Of a stretch of DNA of 64,000 nt, positions 2,934 through 59,298 are shown piece by piece. A program made the translations under genes and the position numbers. Each line of letters starts with the position of its first letter. Positions within the stretch are counted from its first letter, which is position 1. The stretch is from Fictibacillus enclensis (lineage in GTDB: Bacteria; Bacillota; Bacilli; Bacillales; Fictibacillaceae). The notes under the pieces were generated by a model, which was not told the origin of the DNA, did not search any database, and saw only the letters and a program-made list of their open reading frames with translations. The stretch is taken from NCBI RefSeq assembly GCF_001457035.1, contig NZ_KQ758617.1, positions 124,001-188,000 on the forward strand. Reading direction: 5' to 3'.

Positions 2934-3899
2934 GTGCAGGCAGGTCTCAGGTTTGAGCAGTTGACCAATGATGAGAAGCATCAGCATTTTATGCAAAGAA
3001 TCAACCGCGGTGAAAAGATAGAAGCAGATGACTGGATGCCGGATGATTACCGAATCAGCTTGATCCGGCTGATTTCCATGCATGGCATTTCGGAAATTAT
3101 GGGAGCGCTTCCGGAAAAGGAGTGGGTTCCAAAAGCGCCGTCCCTTCACCGCAAATTGGCCATCATGGCGAAGGTGCAGGATGAGATGGGTCACGGACAG
3201 CTCCTGTTGCGGGTAGCAGAGGATCTCATGGCACCGCTTGGCAAATCAAGAGAAGACATTATGCAGGATCTTTTTTCCGGAAAGTTAAAGTTTCATAACG
3301 TGTTTCACATGGAAGCGCCAACCTGGGGAGATGCCGGAATGATTGCCTGGCTGGTGGATGGTGCGGCCATTATTTCACAAAGTATGATGCTTGATTCCTC
3401 CTATGGCCCGTACGCCAGGGCGTTAAAGCGAATTTGTGCCGAAGAAGTTTTTCATGCGCAGCACGGCGAGAGCATCATTCTCGCTTTGGCGGAAGGAACA
3501 CCGGAACAACGCGAGCTTCTGCAGGATTCTCTTAACCGCTGGTGGACATCGCTGATCATGTTCTTTGGTCCGAAATCTGCCAAAGAAACCGGCAATTCCA
3601 ATGCAGACAGAAATATCATGTACAAAATCCGAACCAAGACCAATGAAGAACTGAGACAGGAATTCTTTACAAAATATATCCCGAGGATTTGGGCGCTCGG
3701 CCTTACGATTCCGGATGAGACCATCCACTTTGATGGAGAGGCACAGATGTGGATTTACAAGGATGTGGACTGGAGGGAGTTTAAGCAAATTGTTTCTGGA
3801 AACGGCCCTCGTTCACAGGAGCGCCTGGATCTAAGAAGAAGATCCTATGATAACAATGGCTGGGTTCGTGAGGCGCTTGCCGCCCAAAAGGCAATCTGA
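2934..3899 (+). CDS. paaA: phenylacetyl-CoA 1,2-epoxidase subunit PaaA
   Basis: Catalytic diiron subunit of the multicomponent monooxygenase that epoxidises the ring of phenylacetyl-CoA. Metal-ligand pairs are visible: DEMGH (E84, H87) and EEVFH (E171, H174), with further acidic ligands expected at E54 and around D142. The length of 321 residues is normal. GTG 2934 follows AGGAGGGG at an ideal distance. First gene of the tightly packed run paaA-B-C-D. Confidence 0.95.
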   Translation: MQAGLRFEQLTNDEKHQHFMQRINRGEKIEADDWMPDDYRISLIRLISMHGISEIMGALPEKEWVPKAPSLHRKLAIMAKVQDEMGHGQLLLRVAEDLMAPLGKSREDIMQDLFSGKLKFHNVFHMEAPTWGDAGMIAWLVDGAAIISQSMMLDSSYGPYARALKRICAEEVFHAQHGESIILALAEGTPEQRELLQDSLNRWWTSLIMFFGPKSAKETGNSNADRNIMYKIRTKTNEELRQEFFTKYIPRIWALGLTIPDETIHFDGEAQMWIYKDVDWREFKQIVSGNGPRSQERLDLRRRSYDNNGWVREALAAQKAI

Positions 3900-5080: not shown

Positions 5081-5587
5081 ATGGAGGCGGTGTTGCAGTC
5101 TATGAATCTCAAAGAAAAAGTCCTCTTGGCGTTAAAGGAAGTCACGGATCCGGAAATCTCATCCATTAGCATCCTTGATCTGGGTATGGTGGAGGATGTG
5201 GAGGCCACAGACGGCTCAGTTGTAATCAAGGCGCTTCCAACGTTTGTCGGATGCCCGGCGCTTCATATCATTGAACGGGACATAAAAAAAGCAGCGAGTG
5301 AAGTAGATGGTGTTAAAGAGGTAAAGGTAGACTTCGTGTTCTCACCCTCCTGGACAACAGACCGTATCACGGAGGAAGGGAAAATCAGGCTCAAGGAATT
5401 TGGCATTGCTCCGCCTCCGGCCAATCACGTGATGGGAGAACCGTGGAGCATTGATTGTCCGTATTGTGGGTCATCCTATGTCACGATGGAAAACATCTTC
5501 GGCCCTACCGCCTGCCGCAGCATTCTGTATTGCAAGTCTTGCAAAAATCCGTTTGAAGCCATGAAGCCTGTCGCAGACATGAATTAA
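5081..5587 (+). CDS. paaD: PaaD, epoxidase iron-sulfur/metal maturation protein
   Basis: MIP18/DUF59-type protein needed for maturation of the phenylacetyl-CoA epoxidase. Residues 10-90 carry the MIP18 domain with the conserved DPE and LGMV segments. The C-terminus adds a cysteine cluster (C126, C129, C145, C151, C154) likely to bind metal. 168 residues is usual for PaaD. In E. coli the electron-transfer reductase gene paaE comes next; here that slot is taken by a small EthD-like gene. Confidence 0.9.
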   Translation: MEAVLQSMNLKEKVLLALKEVTDPEISSISILDLGMVEDVEATDGSVVIKALPTFVGCPALHIIERDIKKAASEVDGVKEVKVDFVFSPSWTTDRITEEGKIRLKEFGIAPPPANHVMGEPWSIDCPYCGSSYVTMENIFGPTACRSILYCKSCKNPFEAMKPVADMN

Positions 5588-5632
5588 AAGAAAGATAGAA
5601 CATTAAATCCATAACATGAGAGGAAGATTTAA

Positions 5633-5938
5633 ATGGTCAAATTAATCGCCCTTTACAAAACTCCGAAAAACAAGGAAAGCTTTGATGAGCACTATTACGG
5701 TACGCATACGGAAGTAACGAAGAAAATTCCGGGTCTTCGCAAGATGGAGGTAACTAAAATTACAGGCTCGCCAATGGGAGACAGCAAGTACTATTTGCTC
5801 TGCGAGATGTACTATGACGACCATGAATCTCTGCAGGCAGGCATGAAGTCTGCCGAAGGAAAAGCCTCCGGAAAAGATTTAATGTCCTTTGCGGGAGATC
5901 TGGTCACACTGATGATCGGTGAGGAAGTGGATGGCTGA
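5633..5938 (+). CDS. EthD-family protein
   Basis: A 101-residue dimeric ferredoxin-like-fold protein of the EthD family: MVKLIALYKTP, then FDEHYYGTHTEV and the PGLRKMEV segment are characteristic. EthD proteins are small partners of oxidative degradation systems with poorly defined roles. It lies inside the paa operon between paaD and the first crotonase, overlapping the latter by 8 bases, so a role in ring oxidation or in handling a reactive intermediate is likely but unproven. Confidence 0.8.
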   Translation: MVKLIALYKTPKNKESFDEHYYGTHTEVTKKIPGLRKMEVTKITGSPMGDSKYYLLCEMYYDDHESLQAGMKSAEGKASGKDLMSFAGDLVTLMIGEEVDG

Positions 5939-6707
5939 TTTTCAAAGCATAAAAACAAAAGTGGAAGACGGAATTGCGCTCATCGAGTTAAATCGGCCGG
6001 ATGTGCTGAATGCCATCAGCAGAGGCATGGTCACAGAGATCCGCTCTGCCTTTGAAACGTTTGACAAACACGATGCGGTAAAGGCAATCGTTCTCACGGG
6101 AAACGAGAAAGCATTTGCTGCCGGGGCGGATATCGATGAGATGATGGAGGATGACGCAGTCACACTTGAACTGCTCAATCAGTTTAAGGACTGGGATCAG
6201 CTGCACACGATTAAAAAGCCAGTAATCGGGGCGGTCAGCGGCTATTGTTTTGGTGGGGGATTTGAGCTCGCTTTGTGCTGTGACATCCTGTTTGCCTCAG
6301 AAAAGGCTCAGTTTGGCTTCCCGGAAATTAAGCTTGGTGTCATGCCGGGTGCAGGAGGCACCGTCAAACTGACAAAACTGATGGGACCGAAAAATGCTCT
6401 CGAATGGCTGTGGCTTGGTGAACCAATGACAGCGAAGGAAGCGCAAAAACACGGAATCATTAACAGAATAGTTGCTCCAGAACTTGTGGTGGAAGAGGCT
6501 ATGAAATTTGCCCGCACCATTGCAGATAAAGCACCGCTGTCTCTTCGGCTGATTAAGGAATCAGTCCGGTATGCGGCTGATCATTCCGTGCAAGACGGCA
6601 TGCAGCTTGAAAGAAAGAACTTCTATTTGTTGTTTTCTTCGGAAGATCAAAAAGAAGGAATGAAAGCTTTTACTGAAAAACGGTATCCCCATTTCAAGGG
6701 AAAATAA
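5931..6707 (+). CDS. paaF: enoyl-CoA hydratase (PaaF-like)
   Basis: Crotonase-fold hydratase expected to hydrate 2,3-dehydroadipyl-CoA to 3-hydroxyadipyl-CoA. Both catalytic glutamates of true hydratases are present, E112 in GGFELA and E132 in FPEI, and the oxyanion loop GGGFEL is intact. ATG 5931 follows GGTGAGGAAG; a GTG 12 bases upstream is less suitable. 258 residues. Assignment to PaaF rather than another hydratase of the cluster is by operon position. Confidence 0.8.
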   Translation: MADFQSIKTKVEDGIALIELNRPDVLNAISRGMVTEIRSAFETFDKHDAVKAIVLTGNEKAFAAGADIDEMMEDDAVTLELLNQFKDWDQLHTIKKPVIGAVSGYCFGGGFELALCCDILFASEKAQFGFPEIKLGVMPGAGGTVKLTKLMGPKNALEWLWLGEPMTAKEAQKHGIINRIVAPELVVEEAMKFARTIADKAPLSLRLIKESVRYAADHSVQDGMQLERKNFYLLFSSEDQKEGMKAFTEKRYPHFKGK

Positions 6708-39589: not shown

Positions 39590-39617
39590 ATAACTATTCA
39601 AAATTACATAACCTTTA

Positions 39618-39742
39618 GATCGCTTAATTTTAAGATTTTGTATAAGCTTAAAAGCGGGGGAACCAATCATTTGGGGTGAATCTTTTTATTAAAGAGGGGA
39701 TACTTCCGATTCCTAATCCGTCAGCTAACCTCGTAAGCGTTA
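39618..39742 (+). ncRNA. c-di-AMP riboswitch (ydaO/yuaA type)
   Basis: The leader carries the conserved blocks of this class in order: CGCTTA (39621), GCGGGGGAACCAA (39654-39666), GGGGTGAATCTTT, AGAGGGGATACTTCCGATTC, and CGTCAGCTAACCTCGTAAGCG ending at 39739. The first and last blocks pair to close the structure. Binding of c-di-AMP stabilises a downstream terminator and turns ktrAB off, matching the known link between c-di-AMP and potassium uptake. Confidence 0.92.
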
Positions 39743-39773
39743 AACAAGGAAGAAAGGGACAGTTTGAATAGTG

Positions 39774-56991: not shown

Positions 56992-57194
56992 AAGACCATC
57001 CTTTCATATCCTGATTAGTAAAAGCATAGCAGACAATGGAAAAATCTCTTACTATTTTGCATAGGAATTCCTTCATTTATTTCAAATGTTTTCAAATCTG
57101 ACACATTAGGAATTTTGGTTTTTTATTGATATTTGCTGGTAAAGAAAGAGACAATATAGAAAAACGGTGGAAAGGCAACAAGGTGATCATAAAT

Positions 57195-57611
57195 ATGAAG
57201 AAAAAAATGAGAAGCATGGTGGCCGGTTTGATTATAATCGGCGGTTGTGCAATCTATATGTATATCAGCCTGATGCCGCCTCTTAAAATACAAACTAAAA
57301 GAACCTCAGCGGTTCAAACGTGGATGGACGCAGAAAATACGGGCCGCTTTCCTTTGAAAATAGAAGCTTTTTATATTAATAATAATGAAGTTCCACCCGA
57401 GGTCACTATGAAGATGAATACTTCTTGGGTTCCTGTTCGCGGGCAAAAGATTTTTGCAGGACAAAAAAAGAAAATACGTATTCTGCATGACTTTCCGGCT
57501 AAGCAAATCGTGATTGTTTATCAATATGCCGGCATTCCTTTCACCCGGACGTTCTTTGTAAAAGATGTCGCGCAATATAAAAAGAAGCTGTTTTTTAAAG
57601 AATTTATTTAA
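57195..57611 (+). CDS. single-helix secreted protein, unknown
   Basis: A basic start MKKKMRSM and one helix (MVAGLIIIGGCAIYMYISLM) lead to a roughly 110-residue outer domain with beta-like alternation (TMKMNTSWVPVRGQK, QIVIVYQYAG). ATG 57195 follows AAGGTGAT by seven bases; the open frame back to 57126 has no start site. 138 residues. I recognise no family. Confidence 0.65.
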   Translation: MKKKMRSMVAGLIIIGGCAIYMYISLMPPLKIQTKRTSAVQTWMDAENTGRFPLKIEAFYINNNEVPPEVTMKMNTSWVPVRGQKIFAGQKKKIRILHDFPAKQIVIVYQYAGIPFTRTFFVKDVAQYKKKLFFKEFI

Positions 57612-57773
57612 TTTTTGTTGAGATACGATGAAAAAAGAAGGAATTTTGTAAAAAAACTCATGTGTTGAAGGTGAAGCAAGCAAAAAGCGTTAATATCAGA
57701 CAAAAATGATTATTCTGAATATTTTAATTATGCTTAGAATACAGTATTATAAACGTAACAAACGAAGGGAGTA

Positions 57774-57841
57774 GATTCCAATGAAGAATGAAAGCGAAGC
57801 ATGCTAAAGAAGCTTTAAGGAGCTTATGCATGTGGGTCTTC
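57774..57841 (+). ncRNA. structured RNA module, copy A (short form)
   Basis: GATTCC (57774) pairs with GGGTC at the 3' end, CATGC (57800-57804) pairs with GCATG (57828-57832), and an inner hairpin AAGCT/AGCTT (57810-57825) closes a six-base loop. The 5' half (TTCCAATGA and AGCGAAGCATG) matches copies B and C. It lacks the longer inner arm with the CCGTGAAAA loop found in those. A purine run AGGGAG stands before it. Also reads as an 8-codon frame, MKNESEAC. Confidence 0.55.
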
Positions 57842-57881
57842 AGAGTAGTCTATTTAATAACACCTAATCTGTTAAAGGCGT

Positions 57882-57983
57882 GATTCCAATGAAAATTGTT
57901 AGCGAAGCATGTCAGAATCGTATCCAACATAAAACCAGCCCGTGAAAACTGGTTTTGCGATATGTGGACATGTGGGAAACCAG
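57882..57983 (+). ncRNA. structured RNA module, copy B
   Basis: The outer stem is GATTCC with GGGAAACC. The second stem is CATGT (57908-57912) with ACATG (57968-57972): the last pair is U-A here but C-G in copies A and C, a compensatory change. A third stem, CGTATC with GATATG, leads to the perfect 8-base arm AAAACCAG/CTGGTTTT (57931-57956) with loop CCCGTGAAAA. The module also opens with ATG AAA ATT GTT AGC GAA GCA. Confidence 0.65.
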
Positions 57984-58012
57984 TGACGGGTACGCATTAA
58001 TTCAGAGGACGT

Positions 58013-58112
58013 GGTTCCAATGACAACGGTAAGCGAAACATGCTAGAATCATGGCGCAAAGGAAAATAGTCCGTGAAAACTATTTTCGCATCATGTGGGC
58101 ATGTGGGAATCC
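58013..58112 (+). ncRNA. structured RNA module, copy C
   Basis: The outer stem is GGTTCC with GGGAATCC. The second stem is CATGC (58039-58043) with GCATG (58099-58103). A third stem CATG/CATG (58050, 58092) leads to the 8-base arm GAAAATAG/CTATTTTC with loop TCCGTGAAAA, nearly the same loop as copy B on a stem of quite different sequence. Preceded by AGAGGACG; includes the short frame MTTVSETC. Confidence 0.65.
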
Positions 58113-58136
58113 AAAGAAGGAAAATAAACTGAAAGA

Positions 58137-58159
58137 TGCAAGTCTGCAAGTAATGCAAG
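58137..58159 (+). repeat. three short TGCAAG direct repeats
   Basis: TGCAAG occurs at 58137, 58145 and 58154, spaced 8 and 9 bases, and is followed by GCATGTG, a word also ending the RNA modules. It may be a worn remnant of a fourth module or a protein site. Confidence 0.3.
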
Positions 58160-58212
58160 GCATGTGTTTTAAGTAAAGAAAGGAAAATCAATAAGTGAAT
58201 AGCAAGTACATT

Positions 58213-58262
58213 AAATGAGGCGCACGTTTATGTTCATTCACATAAACAGCGCCTTATTTTTG
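58213..58262 (+). terminator. terminator after the RNA module array
   Basis: AAATGAGGCGC pairs with GCGCCTTATTT (one G-T pair) around an inner GTTTATG/CATAAAC stem, followed by T. It is strong and shows that the array is transcribed and ended before the FNT channel gene. Confidence 0.85.
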
Positions 58263-58380
58263 TTTCTTCCTATTCGTCATCATAACACGGAGATTTTCGG
58301 GGAACGCTATGAACATTATTTCACTTGTGTTTGAGGCATGAAGCGGCAGGGAATCTTAGCAGGGAAATGGAGGGGTGTGG

Positions 58381-59298
58381 ATGAGTAAAGGTACTGAAAA
58401 CGAAGCTTCAGAAACAACGAAGCCAAAGAAACCGGAGCGGCAATATTATTTTCCTGCTCAAATTGTAGAAAGTTTTATTACAAAGGGAAAGGAATCCCTG
58501 CAAACGACGTATATGGCCCAGTTCATTCTTTCGGTTCTGGCGGGAGCGTTCATCGCATTTGGAGCACTCGGTTCAGTACTGCTTACAATAGAAGTAGACA
58601 GCCAGGGGGTAATGAATCTGCTTGCAGGGGTCGGCTTTACCATCGGCTATGCCATGGTTTTTTTATCCGGCTCAATCCTTTTTACCGAAGTAAACATTCT
58701 CCTTCCCAGTTATATCATGCAAAGCAATTACTGGATCAGCAAAAAACTGCTCTATTTTTGGCTGATCTGTTACATAGGAAACTTCCTTGGTGCTTTATTT
58801 GTCGGCTTCCTGCTCAATTTTTCAGGATCGCTGCATGGGGAATTTTACGATCATCTGCTAACCTTTATGGAAAAGAAAATGGAATTTACGCATCGTGGCA
58901 CATGGGGCTGGTTTCAGGTCCTTTTCTCAGGCATCCTCGCCAATTGGCTCATTGGAGCGGCCGCGGTTCTTGCTACTGCGGCAAGGGATGTTGTAGGGAA
59001 AATACTTGGTATTATGCTGCCTGTCATTATCTTTGAGGCCGGCAACTTTCAACACGCCGTAGCAAATATGGGTTATTTCAGTATATCTGTTCTTGAAGGC
59101 TTTGATATCAGCTGGTACAAATTTATCCTTTTAAATTTATTTCCGGCTACCATTGGGAATTTAGTCGGCGGCGCCATTCTCGTATCTCTGCTCTTGTCTT
59201 ACGCTTATAAAGAACAAATTGATGAAGGGGTATTGAAGGAAGAGGAAGAGGCAATCGATGAAATCGAACATAAGGATAAAAAAGGTCAGCACTCATAA
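58381..59298 (+). CDS. formate/nitrite transporter (FNT) family protein
   Basis: Six-helix pentameric channel fold for small monovalent anions. The N-terminus is a 35-residue charged tail, helices follow from about residue 45, and family segments are seen at FGALGSVLL, GFTIGYAMVFLSGSILFTE and GNFQHAVANMGYFS; the C-terminus is an acidic tail. ATG 58381 follows GGAGGGG. 305 residues. Formate, nitrite or hydrosulfide are possible cargos. Confidence 0.85.
   Translation: MSKGTENEASETTKPKKPERQYYFPAQIVESFITKGKESLQTTYMAQFILSVLAGAFIAFGALGSVLLTIEVDSQGVMNLLAGVGFTIGYAMVFLSGSILFTEVNILLPSYIMQSNYWISKKLLYFWLICYIGNFLGALFVGFLLNFSGSLHGEFYDHLLTFMEKKMEFTHRGTWGWFQVLFSGILANWLIGAAAVLATAARDVVGKILGIMLPVIIFEAGNFQHAVANMGYFSISVLEGFDISWYKFILLNLFPATIGNLVGGAILVSLLLSYAYKEQIDEGVLKEEEEAIDEIEHKDKKGQHS

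Follow-up and report, generated by a model that had tools for sequence, protein, structure and literature searches.

Arrays of tandem structured RNA modules with a translation-start-site plan in Fictibacillus enclensis and other Bacillales

We describe a family of arrays of tandem structured RNA modules, each laid out like a translation start site, from a 64,000-nucleotide stretch of the Fictibacillus enclensis genome (the window: contig NZ_KQ758617.1 of assembly GCF_001457035.1, positions 124,001 to 188,000) and from related genomes. As read from the DNA, the plan of the unit is constant: a SigA-type promoter with an overlapping near-palindrome, then tandem modules, then a micro-ORF with an SD, then a terminator. 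To our knowledge, no known system matches this plan of promoter, SD-start-hairpin modules, length-conserved micro-ORF, and terminator, and it is the family and its plan that we regard as new. The modules, their helices P2-P4, the promoter motif, the micro-ORF, the terminator, the free-standing context, and the breadth of the family are sequence-based; in the window, the array looks like one free-standing transcription unit of ~0.5 kb (Table 1) that would be transcribed from promoter to terminator.

Table 1. Features of the array, in positions of the window
Feature	Position	Strand	Details
Near-palindrome ATTATTCTGAATATT	57709..57723	+	probable operator, CodY-like; overlaps -35 box
SigA-type promoter	57722..57750	+	-35 TTTTAA 57722-57727; 17-nt spacer; -10 TATTAT 57745-57750
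Module A, short type	57764..57840	+	R1 E 1.5e-7; R2 E 2.2e-9; SD-like GAAGGGAG 57764-57771; UUCC 57776-57779; AUG 57781-57783; P2 57799-57804/57828-57833; GGG 57834-57836
Module B, long type	57874..57980	+	R1 E 1.8e-30; SD-like AAAGG 57874-57878; UUCC 57884-57887; AUG 57889-57891; P2 57907-57913/57967-57973; P3 57919-57924/57959-57964; P4 57931-57938/57949-57956; loop CCCGUGAAAA 57939-57948; GGGA 57974-57977
Module C, long type	58004..58114	+	R1 E 6.2e-29; SD-like AGAGGA 58004-58009; UUCC 58015-58018; AUG 58020-58022; P2 58038-58044/58098-58104; GGGA 58105-58108
SD of terminal micro-ORF, AGAAAGGA	58177..58184	+	equivalent place in relatives
Terminal micro-ORF	58195..58218	+	GTG AAT AGC AAG TAC ATT AAA TGA; 7 codons + stop
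Intrinsic terminator	58213..58266	+	stem AAATGAGGCGC.../...GCGCCTTATTT then T-rich run; -25.1 kcal/mol, z -7.2

Three tandem modules had been proposed by a sequence-only reading of the window and lie where it placed them: the pattern TTCCAATGA...AGCGAARCAT occurs at 57776, 57884, and 58015 (0 matches in 100 shuffles), and a scan of the organism's whole genome with TTCCAATGA-N-AGCGAARCAT returns these three and no others. The stretch described as gene-free holds no recognised gene from the end of an ORF at 57611 to the next gene at 58375 or 58381, the base changes named between the copies are all present in the sequence, and the terminator is as strong as claimed. Copy A, described there as having a shortened inner arm, is shorter, yet it matches both of our covariance models, R1 and R2. 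The proposed "small-RNA cluster" fits in part, as the array looks like a single transcription unit in which one promoter and one terminator enclose several modules and a micro-ORF. That reading included neither the terminal micro-ORF nor the start-site plan of the modules.

Because the single-sequence folds of the modules are unremarkable or mild (z -0.6 for module A, -1.4 for B, and -2.2 for C), the case for structure rests on comparison. R1 was built from 30 long modules and R2 from 25 short modules, which are without P3 and P4; module length is about 67-140 nt overall. For the long alignment, the script dropped 16 of 47 modules (six copy-A modules, repeats, and ends reading GUGUGGGAA) and one further near-repeat was removed by hand; the short alignment uses 25 of the 30 modules listed. 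Among the 30 long modules, 98.1% of cells pair across four helices, and the covariation score is 0.438, compared with 0.244 on shuffling (0/500 as high) and at most 0.128 on sliding; further pair types are no more numerous than after shuffling (466/500 as high). All seven P2 pairs show double-sided changes in the 25 short modules, for which the collecting script demanded P2 pairing and GGG. Where pairing was not demanded, at 91 distinct anchors found by their 5' pattern (some at loci titled outside Bacillales and never passed to R2), six of six P2 pairs stand directly before GGG in 76, with 12 different P2 arms among them, against 1.4 expected, and at most 5 in 200, with shuffled downstream DNA. 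P2 pairing before GGG is found at 0 of the 22 anchors from the 23 loci that lack a model match. In these comparisons helices P2-P4 covary, and the compensatory changes bear out the selected RNA structure that had been argued from the three copies.

The putative helix P1, which would pair UCC with GGG, shows no variation, and hence no covariation, in either the long or the short alignment, an invariance that is partly due to the collecting patterns, which demanded both elements. Predicted folding favours the pairing of UCC with upstream purines over P1 (mean probability 0.53 vs. 0.19), so that a two-state switch is possible; the SD-like region is predicted unpaired at 0.54. Covariation between SD and UCC is absent (matched vs. 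mismatched partners, 63/200 as low). In a test of P1 extension, in which some flanks were set at the wrong GGG, energy was as low in 2/200 shuffles and run length as high in 174/300. One module found by the model, in locus L255, has no GGG at all. The unpaired bulge (AGCGAAG) and the apical loop of long modules (CCNGUGAAAA) are among the most conserved parts of the module; the loops of short modules vary, and some contain GGA (for example in L130).

The order of elements within a module is an SD-like stretch, UUCC, an AUG or GUG in a conserved bulge of ~19 nt, and P2, and the alignments used for R1 and R2 show the same plan. Across 127 distinct modules, which include at least two chance matches (L113, and L136 at reverse-strand position 1178) and are not independent because they are related by descent, the start position reads AUG in 113, GUG in 11, and AAG in 3, these last all belonging to one array. 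The distance from AUG to P2 is 19-21 nt in 125 of the 127 and the last RGG ends 8-12 nt 5' of the AUG in 120; these figures, and the duplex energy given below, describe the plan rather than prove it, because chance matches are included and because collection admitted only [AG][TA]G as the start and a bounded distance to P2, besides demanding UCC and GGG. At 19-21 nt after a start codon, P2 would begin near the edge of a 30S subunit bound there. The predicted duplex of the 127 modules with the 3' end of 16S rRNA averages -9.2 kcal/mol compared with -5.9 for shuffled segments. Of the 127, 51 carry a stop as third codon, 71 read through 8-19 codons, and 126 have frames of 2 to 19 codons. We dropped these within-module micro-ORFs as proof of coding, the consensus having early stops in other frames too (AUGA; UUAG).

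The motif TTCTGAATATTTACA, with at most two mismatches, lies upstream of 63 of 85 distinct arrays, one of the 85 being a chance locus (L113), and the corresponding shuffle fraction is 0.001; a TA...T hexamer follows a 17-nt spacer in 60 of those 63 best-matching arrays. The -35 box reads TTTACA in many relatives, and the promoter of the window is absent from the output of a simple consensus scan. In 57 aligned promoters, preselected for at most three mismatches to TTCTGAATATTTACA, at least 5 of the 7 positions of the dyad agree in 50, and the near-palindrome AATATTCWGAATATT fits the promoter core with 0-1 mismatch in 28. It fits these promoters better than does the CodY consensus in the form used in the literature (AATTTTCWGAAAATT), which has 1-3 mismatches in 44 and 4-6 in 13. 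The near-palindrome is a probable operator, CodY-like in kind, and we infer nutritional (CodY-like) control of the promoter.

At the other end of the unit, the arrays of relatives carry counterparts of the terminator, which in the window is absent from the output of a simple terminator scan. We collected tails with a terminator score of at least 17 together with 60 nt upstream and collapsed identical ones to 72, the window's own tail falling outside this set as the script chose another hairpin there. A rule-based search detects a micro-ORF in 59 of these 72 distinct tails, which are related by descent and therefore not independent trials, against 5.7 expected from shuffles, and at 10 of 265 unrelated terminator-like hairpins of the same loci, located by a slightly different script. 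Two of the 59 positives (L172, L247) are other short frames and not the conserved one. By eye, nine of the 13 misses hold an ORF that fails the SD window alone, two have a mis-called terminator (L005, L070), and two (L141, L145) show nothing clear. One of the ten control positives, in L067, itself reads like a terminal micro-ORF: a second terminator-like hairpin on the minus strand, at 6609 in reverse-strand coordinates, with ATG TTA GAT TTA TCA ATA GTG TAG, is perhaps a further unit of the array kind.

The distance from SD to start is rather long in the micro-ORFs, about 9-14 nt by eye. Most are 7 codons long and end in a stop at the base of the terminator; this length is kept, and the peptide is hardly conserved. 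The rule recovers a micro-ORF identical to that of the window in L003, which belongs to the same genus; the peptides otherwise differ (MNSKYIK, MNKVSLS, MLEESIV, and others, start codons being read as M), and minimum changes at codon positions 1, 2, and 3 are 3, 6, 8; 2, 3, 2; and 7, 7, 10 in three groups, a weak bias to third positions. Such a pattern, with length kept and peptide not, would be expected if the act of translation mattered and not the peptide made.

We searched for the array in other genomes, counting the source genome in every total and taking Bacillales in the broad sense; other taxonomies place Paenibacillus in an order of its own. With the array DNA, 26 of 60 related genomes match, G004 at 97% identity over the array. 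R1 matches 26 of 34 genomes of the family, including 7/7 of the own genus, and 0/8 genomes of one sister genus; in the order it matches 32 of 299 genomes, from 12 of 116 genera. R2 extends this to 54 of 397 genomes of the order, from 20 of 135 genera, two of which enter by weak matches alone (G256 and G315; E 7e-4 and 6e-4), and to 21 of 398 genomes of the class, from 11 of 146 genera. Further weak model matches occur in G607, G622, and G699, and one of the matches in the class (G365:C12, L244; R2 E 1.9e-4) was rejected as it looks like an ordinary gene start. More tandem, covarying modules have come from other genomes by a covariance search of the kind that the sequence-only reading had proposed as its check.

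In named genomes, a pattern scan picked out 98 stretches, and 73 of these were passed to R2. The 50 that match are titled Fictibacillus, Rossellomorea, Metabacillus, Bacillus, Alkalihalobacillus, Halalkalibacter, Caldalkalibacillus, Paenibacillus, Paenibacillaceae, and Saccharibacillus; the 23 with no match comprise 22 titled outside Bacillales and one "uncultured bacterium." Of the 25 stretches outside the R2 search, 19 are titled Fictibacillus, Metabacillus, Peribacillus, or Paenibacillus; the remaining six are unplaced or lie outside Bacillales. On viral contigs, R2 was run on 80 of at least 120 loose-pattern stretches and its best match reaches 19 bits (E 0.013); a phage element was rejected, the three best viral matches sitting inside ORFs of 363, 362, and 384 codons.

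The number of modules per array ranges from one to nine by model, the largest being L071; for L241 the model gives eight, and inspection by eye about eleven. The nine short modules of L071 stand in a row (5225-5979), and recent tandem duplication is suggested there because several are nearly identical. Spacing can differ as well, the two modules of L007/L080 starting 426 nt apart, with a long spacer between, compared with the usual distance of about 108-131. One genome, G763, has several paralogous units at separate places (L238, L239, L240), each with a promoter-like motif and with a tail ORF of the type M-N/S-E-E-I-M/V. On the minus strand of L241 (~3779-3895) we observed a 38-codon leader frame with a module-like SD-TGCAGCCA-start block; the frame has an end similar to one in L253 (WYMGM-x-YHYYP). 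As a gene served by the array this frame was rejected, since it overlaps an apparent degenerate module and is not whole in L253.

In the window, the array is preceded by an ORF at 57126-57611 (+ strand), 161 codons long or less if an inner start is used, which matches no Pfam family at E<=1e-5, and it is followed by a formate/nitrite transporter gene, also on the + strand (58375-59298). Of 32 flanking ORFs listed at 16 loci, we scanned the proteins of 27, at 15 loci outside the window, and three more within the window against Pfam at E<=1e-5, 30 in all. No family is common across genera among the 27, which include transporters, Mur ligase, PrkA, UvrD, GatB, AraC and GntR regulators, and others; a methyltransferase upstream of the array is common to L073 and L074, from genomes that the search assigns to one genus (g64). 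No toxin family and no recurring RNA-binding partner is found among the 30. Because the flanking genes differ between genera, we consider the array free-standing and not a leader.

Rfam 15 has nothing over the array at its gathering cut-offs, in agreement with the sequence-only reading, which had recognised no riboswitch or sRNA family. Elsewhere in the window it returns only an ordinary c-di-AMP (ydaO/yuaA) riboswitch (39611-39754, + strand; 97.5 bits, E 7.5e-22). At E<=10, the only match over the array is mir-513, on the terminator, with 21.9 bits vs. a cut-off of 72.1. Ten relative loci yield cspA outside the array only (a thermoregulator RNA in L066, 4127-4475, minus strand, at 88.8 bits and some 800 bases away from the array), and four matches on the L071 array are all below their own cut-offs. 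ARAGORN finds 0 tRNA or tmRNA genes in 57000-58500. In a literature search covering few subscription papers and no preprints, we recognised no publication as describing the array RNA. Apparent short resemblances of modules to 23S had prompted the idea of an rRNA mimic; it was rejected after six modules were compared with E. coli 16S and 23S rRNA in both orientations (24 tests), the lowest p values being 0.04 and 0.07, for a single module.

Several known systems are like the array in part. OLE, raiA, and ROOL are large free-standing structured RNAs of Gram-positive bacteria, and the array resembles them in having its own promoter, a patchy spread, and a function not evident from its neighbours; it differs in its modular tandem build and in having no Rfam match. 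Type III toxin-antitoxin systems carry tandem RNA repeats beside a toxin gene, followed by a terminator; the array also has tandem RNA repeats and then a terminator, but its modules are much longer and the 30 flanking proteins scanned include no toxin family. CsrB/RsmZ sponges are defined by repeated GGA in hairpin loops. Like CsrB, CsrC, and RsmZ, the array is free-standing and multivalent, with repeated sites; unlike them, it has start codons in its modules, a terminal micro-ORF, no GGA in the long-module loop, and purine segments placed outside the hairpin that do not always read GGA. Minigenes are AUG-NNN-stop frames (see also PMC8708949). This form is approached by the 51 modules of 127 with a third-codon stop behind an SD-like stretch, but the start sites of the array are embedded in a conserved fold and most modules are not two-codon ORFs. 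The STAB-SD of cry3A (Agaisse and Lereclus 1996, cited in PMC7509114) is one short mRNA-stabilising element. A stabiliser of this type is an SD close to the 5' end to which 30S binds in the absence of a start codon. The array likewise has SDs that may hold 30S subunits without productive translation, and a strong SD, which may bind 30S, is seen by eye near the 5' end of several arrays (e.g., L071 5180-5189); in contrast to STAB-SD, it has many SDs, beside folded modules, and no mRNA behind. We consider CsrB-type sponges, STAB-SD, and minigenes partial analogies and do not assign the array to any of them.

We favour, with somewhat less than even confidence, a reading in which the array RNA acts in trans, presenting structured start sites and titrating ribosomes or a start-site-binding protein. 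A multivalent trans-acting RNA is suggested because the unit is constant and independent of its neighbours, the number of modules is variable, and the start-site plan is present. A SigA-type promoter, controlled via the overlapping palindrome, would give an RNA of tandem modules, each of them a hairpin displaying a translation-start site (SD-like stretch, UUCC, AUG/GUG, and P2). The modules would dock 30S or 70S ribosomes, or else a protein specific for structured start sites; once the promoter is released, they would titrate the ribosomes or that protein, and the terminal micro-ORF would keep a ribosome at the 3' end of the RNA. Ribosomes are our first choice of binder, with a protein as the alternative: ribosome docking would explain the SDs, the spacing, and the terminal ORF, and a specific binder would explain the AGCGAAG bulge and the CCNGUGAAAA loop, which are more specific than mere 30S docking requires and so count against start-site display. 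The AAG starts of one array, the SD-like region predicted unpaired at only 0.54, and the lack of covariation in P1 also weigh against it. A more particular version, in which ribosomes are parked or counted in trans by the RNA, each module is a switch whose UUCC covers the SD in one state and forms P1 in the other, and the 7-codon ORF holds the 3' ribosome, seems doubtful to us, and we have lowered its standing because the invariance of UCC and GGG is partly built in by the collecting pattern.

A sponge of the CsrB/RsmZ type, in which the modules bind one regulator (CsrA or another) and the ribosome-like features are incidental or mimic mRNA targets, is the likeliest alternative to start-site display, though itself unlikely. 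The tandem copies in varying number, the free-standing unit, the conserved unpaired bulge and loop, and the conserved promoter motif would all suit a sponge, and CsrA-type regulators bind over SD sequences. Against it, the purine segment does not always contain GGA (as in AAAGGCGTG and AAAAGGTGG) and the long-module loop has none, the terminal micro-ORF goes unexplained, and the 30 flanking proteins show no recurring RNA-binding partner.

Tandem aptamers or translational switches, in which a ligand would move UUCC between an off state, paired to the SD-like purines, and an on state, paired to the 3' GGGA as P1, strike us as rather unlikely. The competing pairings predicted by folding and the highly conserved bulge point toward such a switch, as does the invariance of UCC and GGG in both alignments, itself partly a product of collection; neither pairing covaries, however, one module lacks GGG, and only the module ORFs of 2 to 19 codons and the terminal micro-ORF are left to regulate. 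Slightly less probable again is a base-pairing small RNA whose unpaired blocks, AGCGAAG and CCNGUGAAAA, pair with mRNAs. These blocks are among the most conserved parts of a free-standing unit with a terminator, but they are constant across genera, whereas targets would be expected to differ, and the six modules show no significant complementarity to E. coli 16S or 23S rRNA.

We think it improbable that the array is a micro-peptide gene or mRNA-like element in which translation of the micro-ORFs is itself the function, through peptidyl-tRNA trapping like that of phage minigenes or through peptides: third-codon stops and the frequency of the terminal ORF favour it, but the peptides are hardly conserved and 71 of the 127 modules read 8-19 codons. 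A cis-acting leader of the transporter gene, the regulatory role that the sequence-only reading had also entertained, gains from that gene being next on the same strand but is scarcely credible given the terminator that closes the array before it and the unrelated genes at that place in other genera.

The array RNA occurs in 20 of the 135 sampled Bacillales genera (two by weak matches) and in Paenibacillus, and is missing from Rfam. Should the modules bind a protein, the array would be the first CsrB-like sponge known to us in this group; should ribosomes be what they bind, Gram-positive bacteria would have in it a multivalent regulator of translation initiation. A ribosome-parking array, if true, would mean that translation capacity is tuned under nutrient (CodY-like) control without a protein factor.
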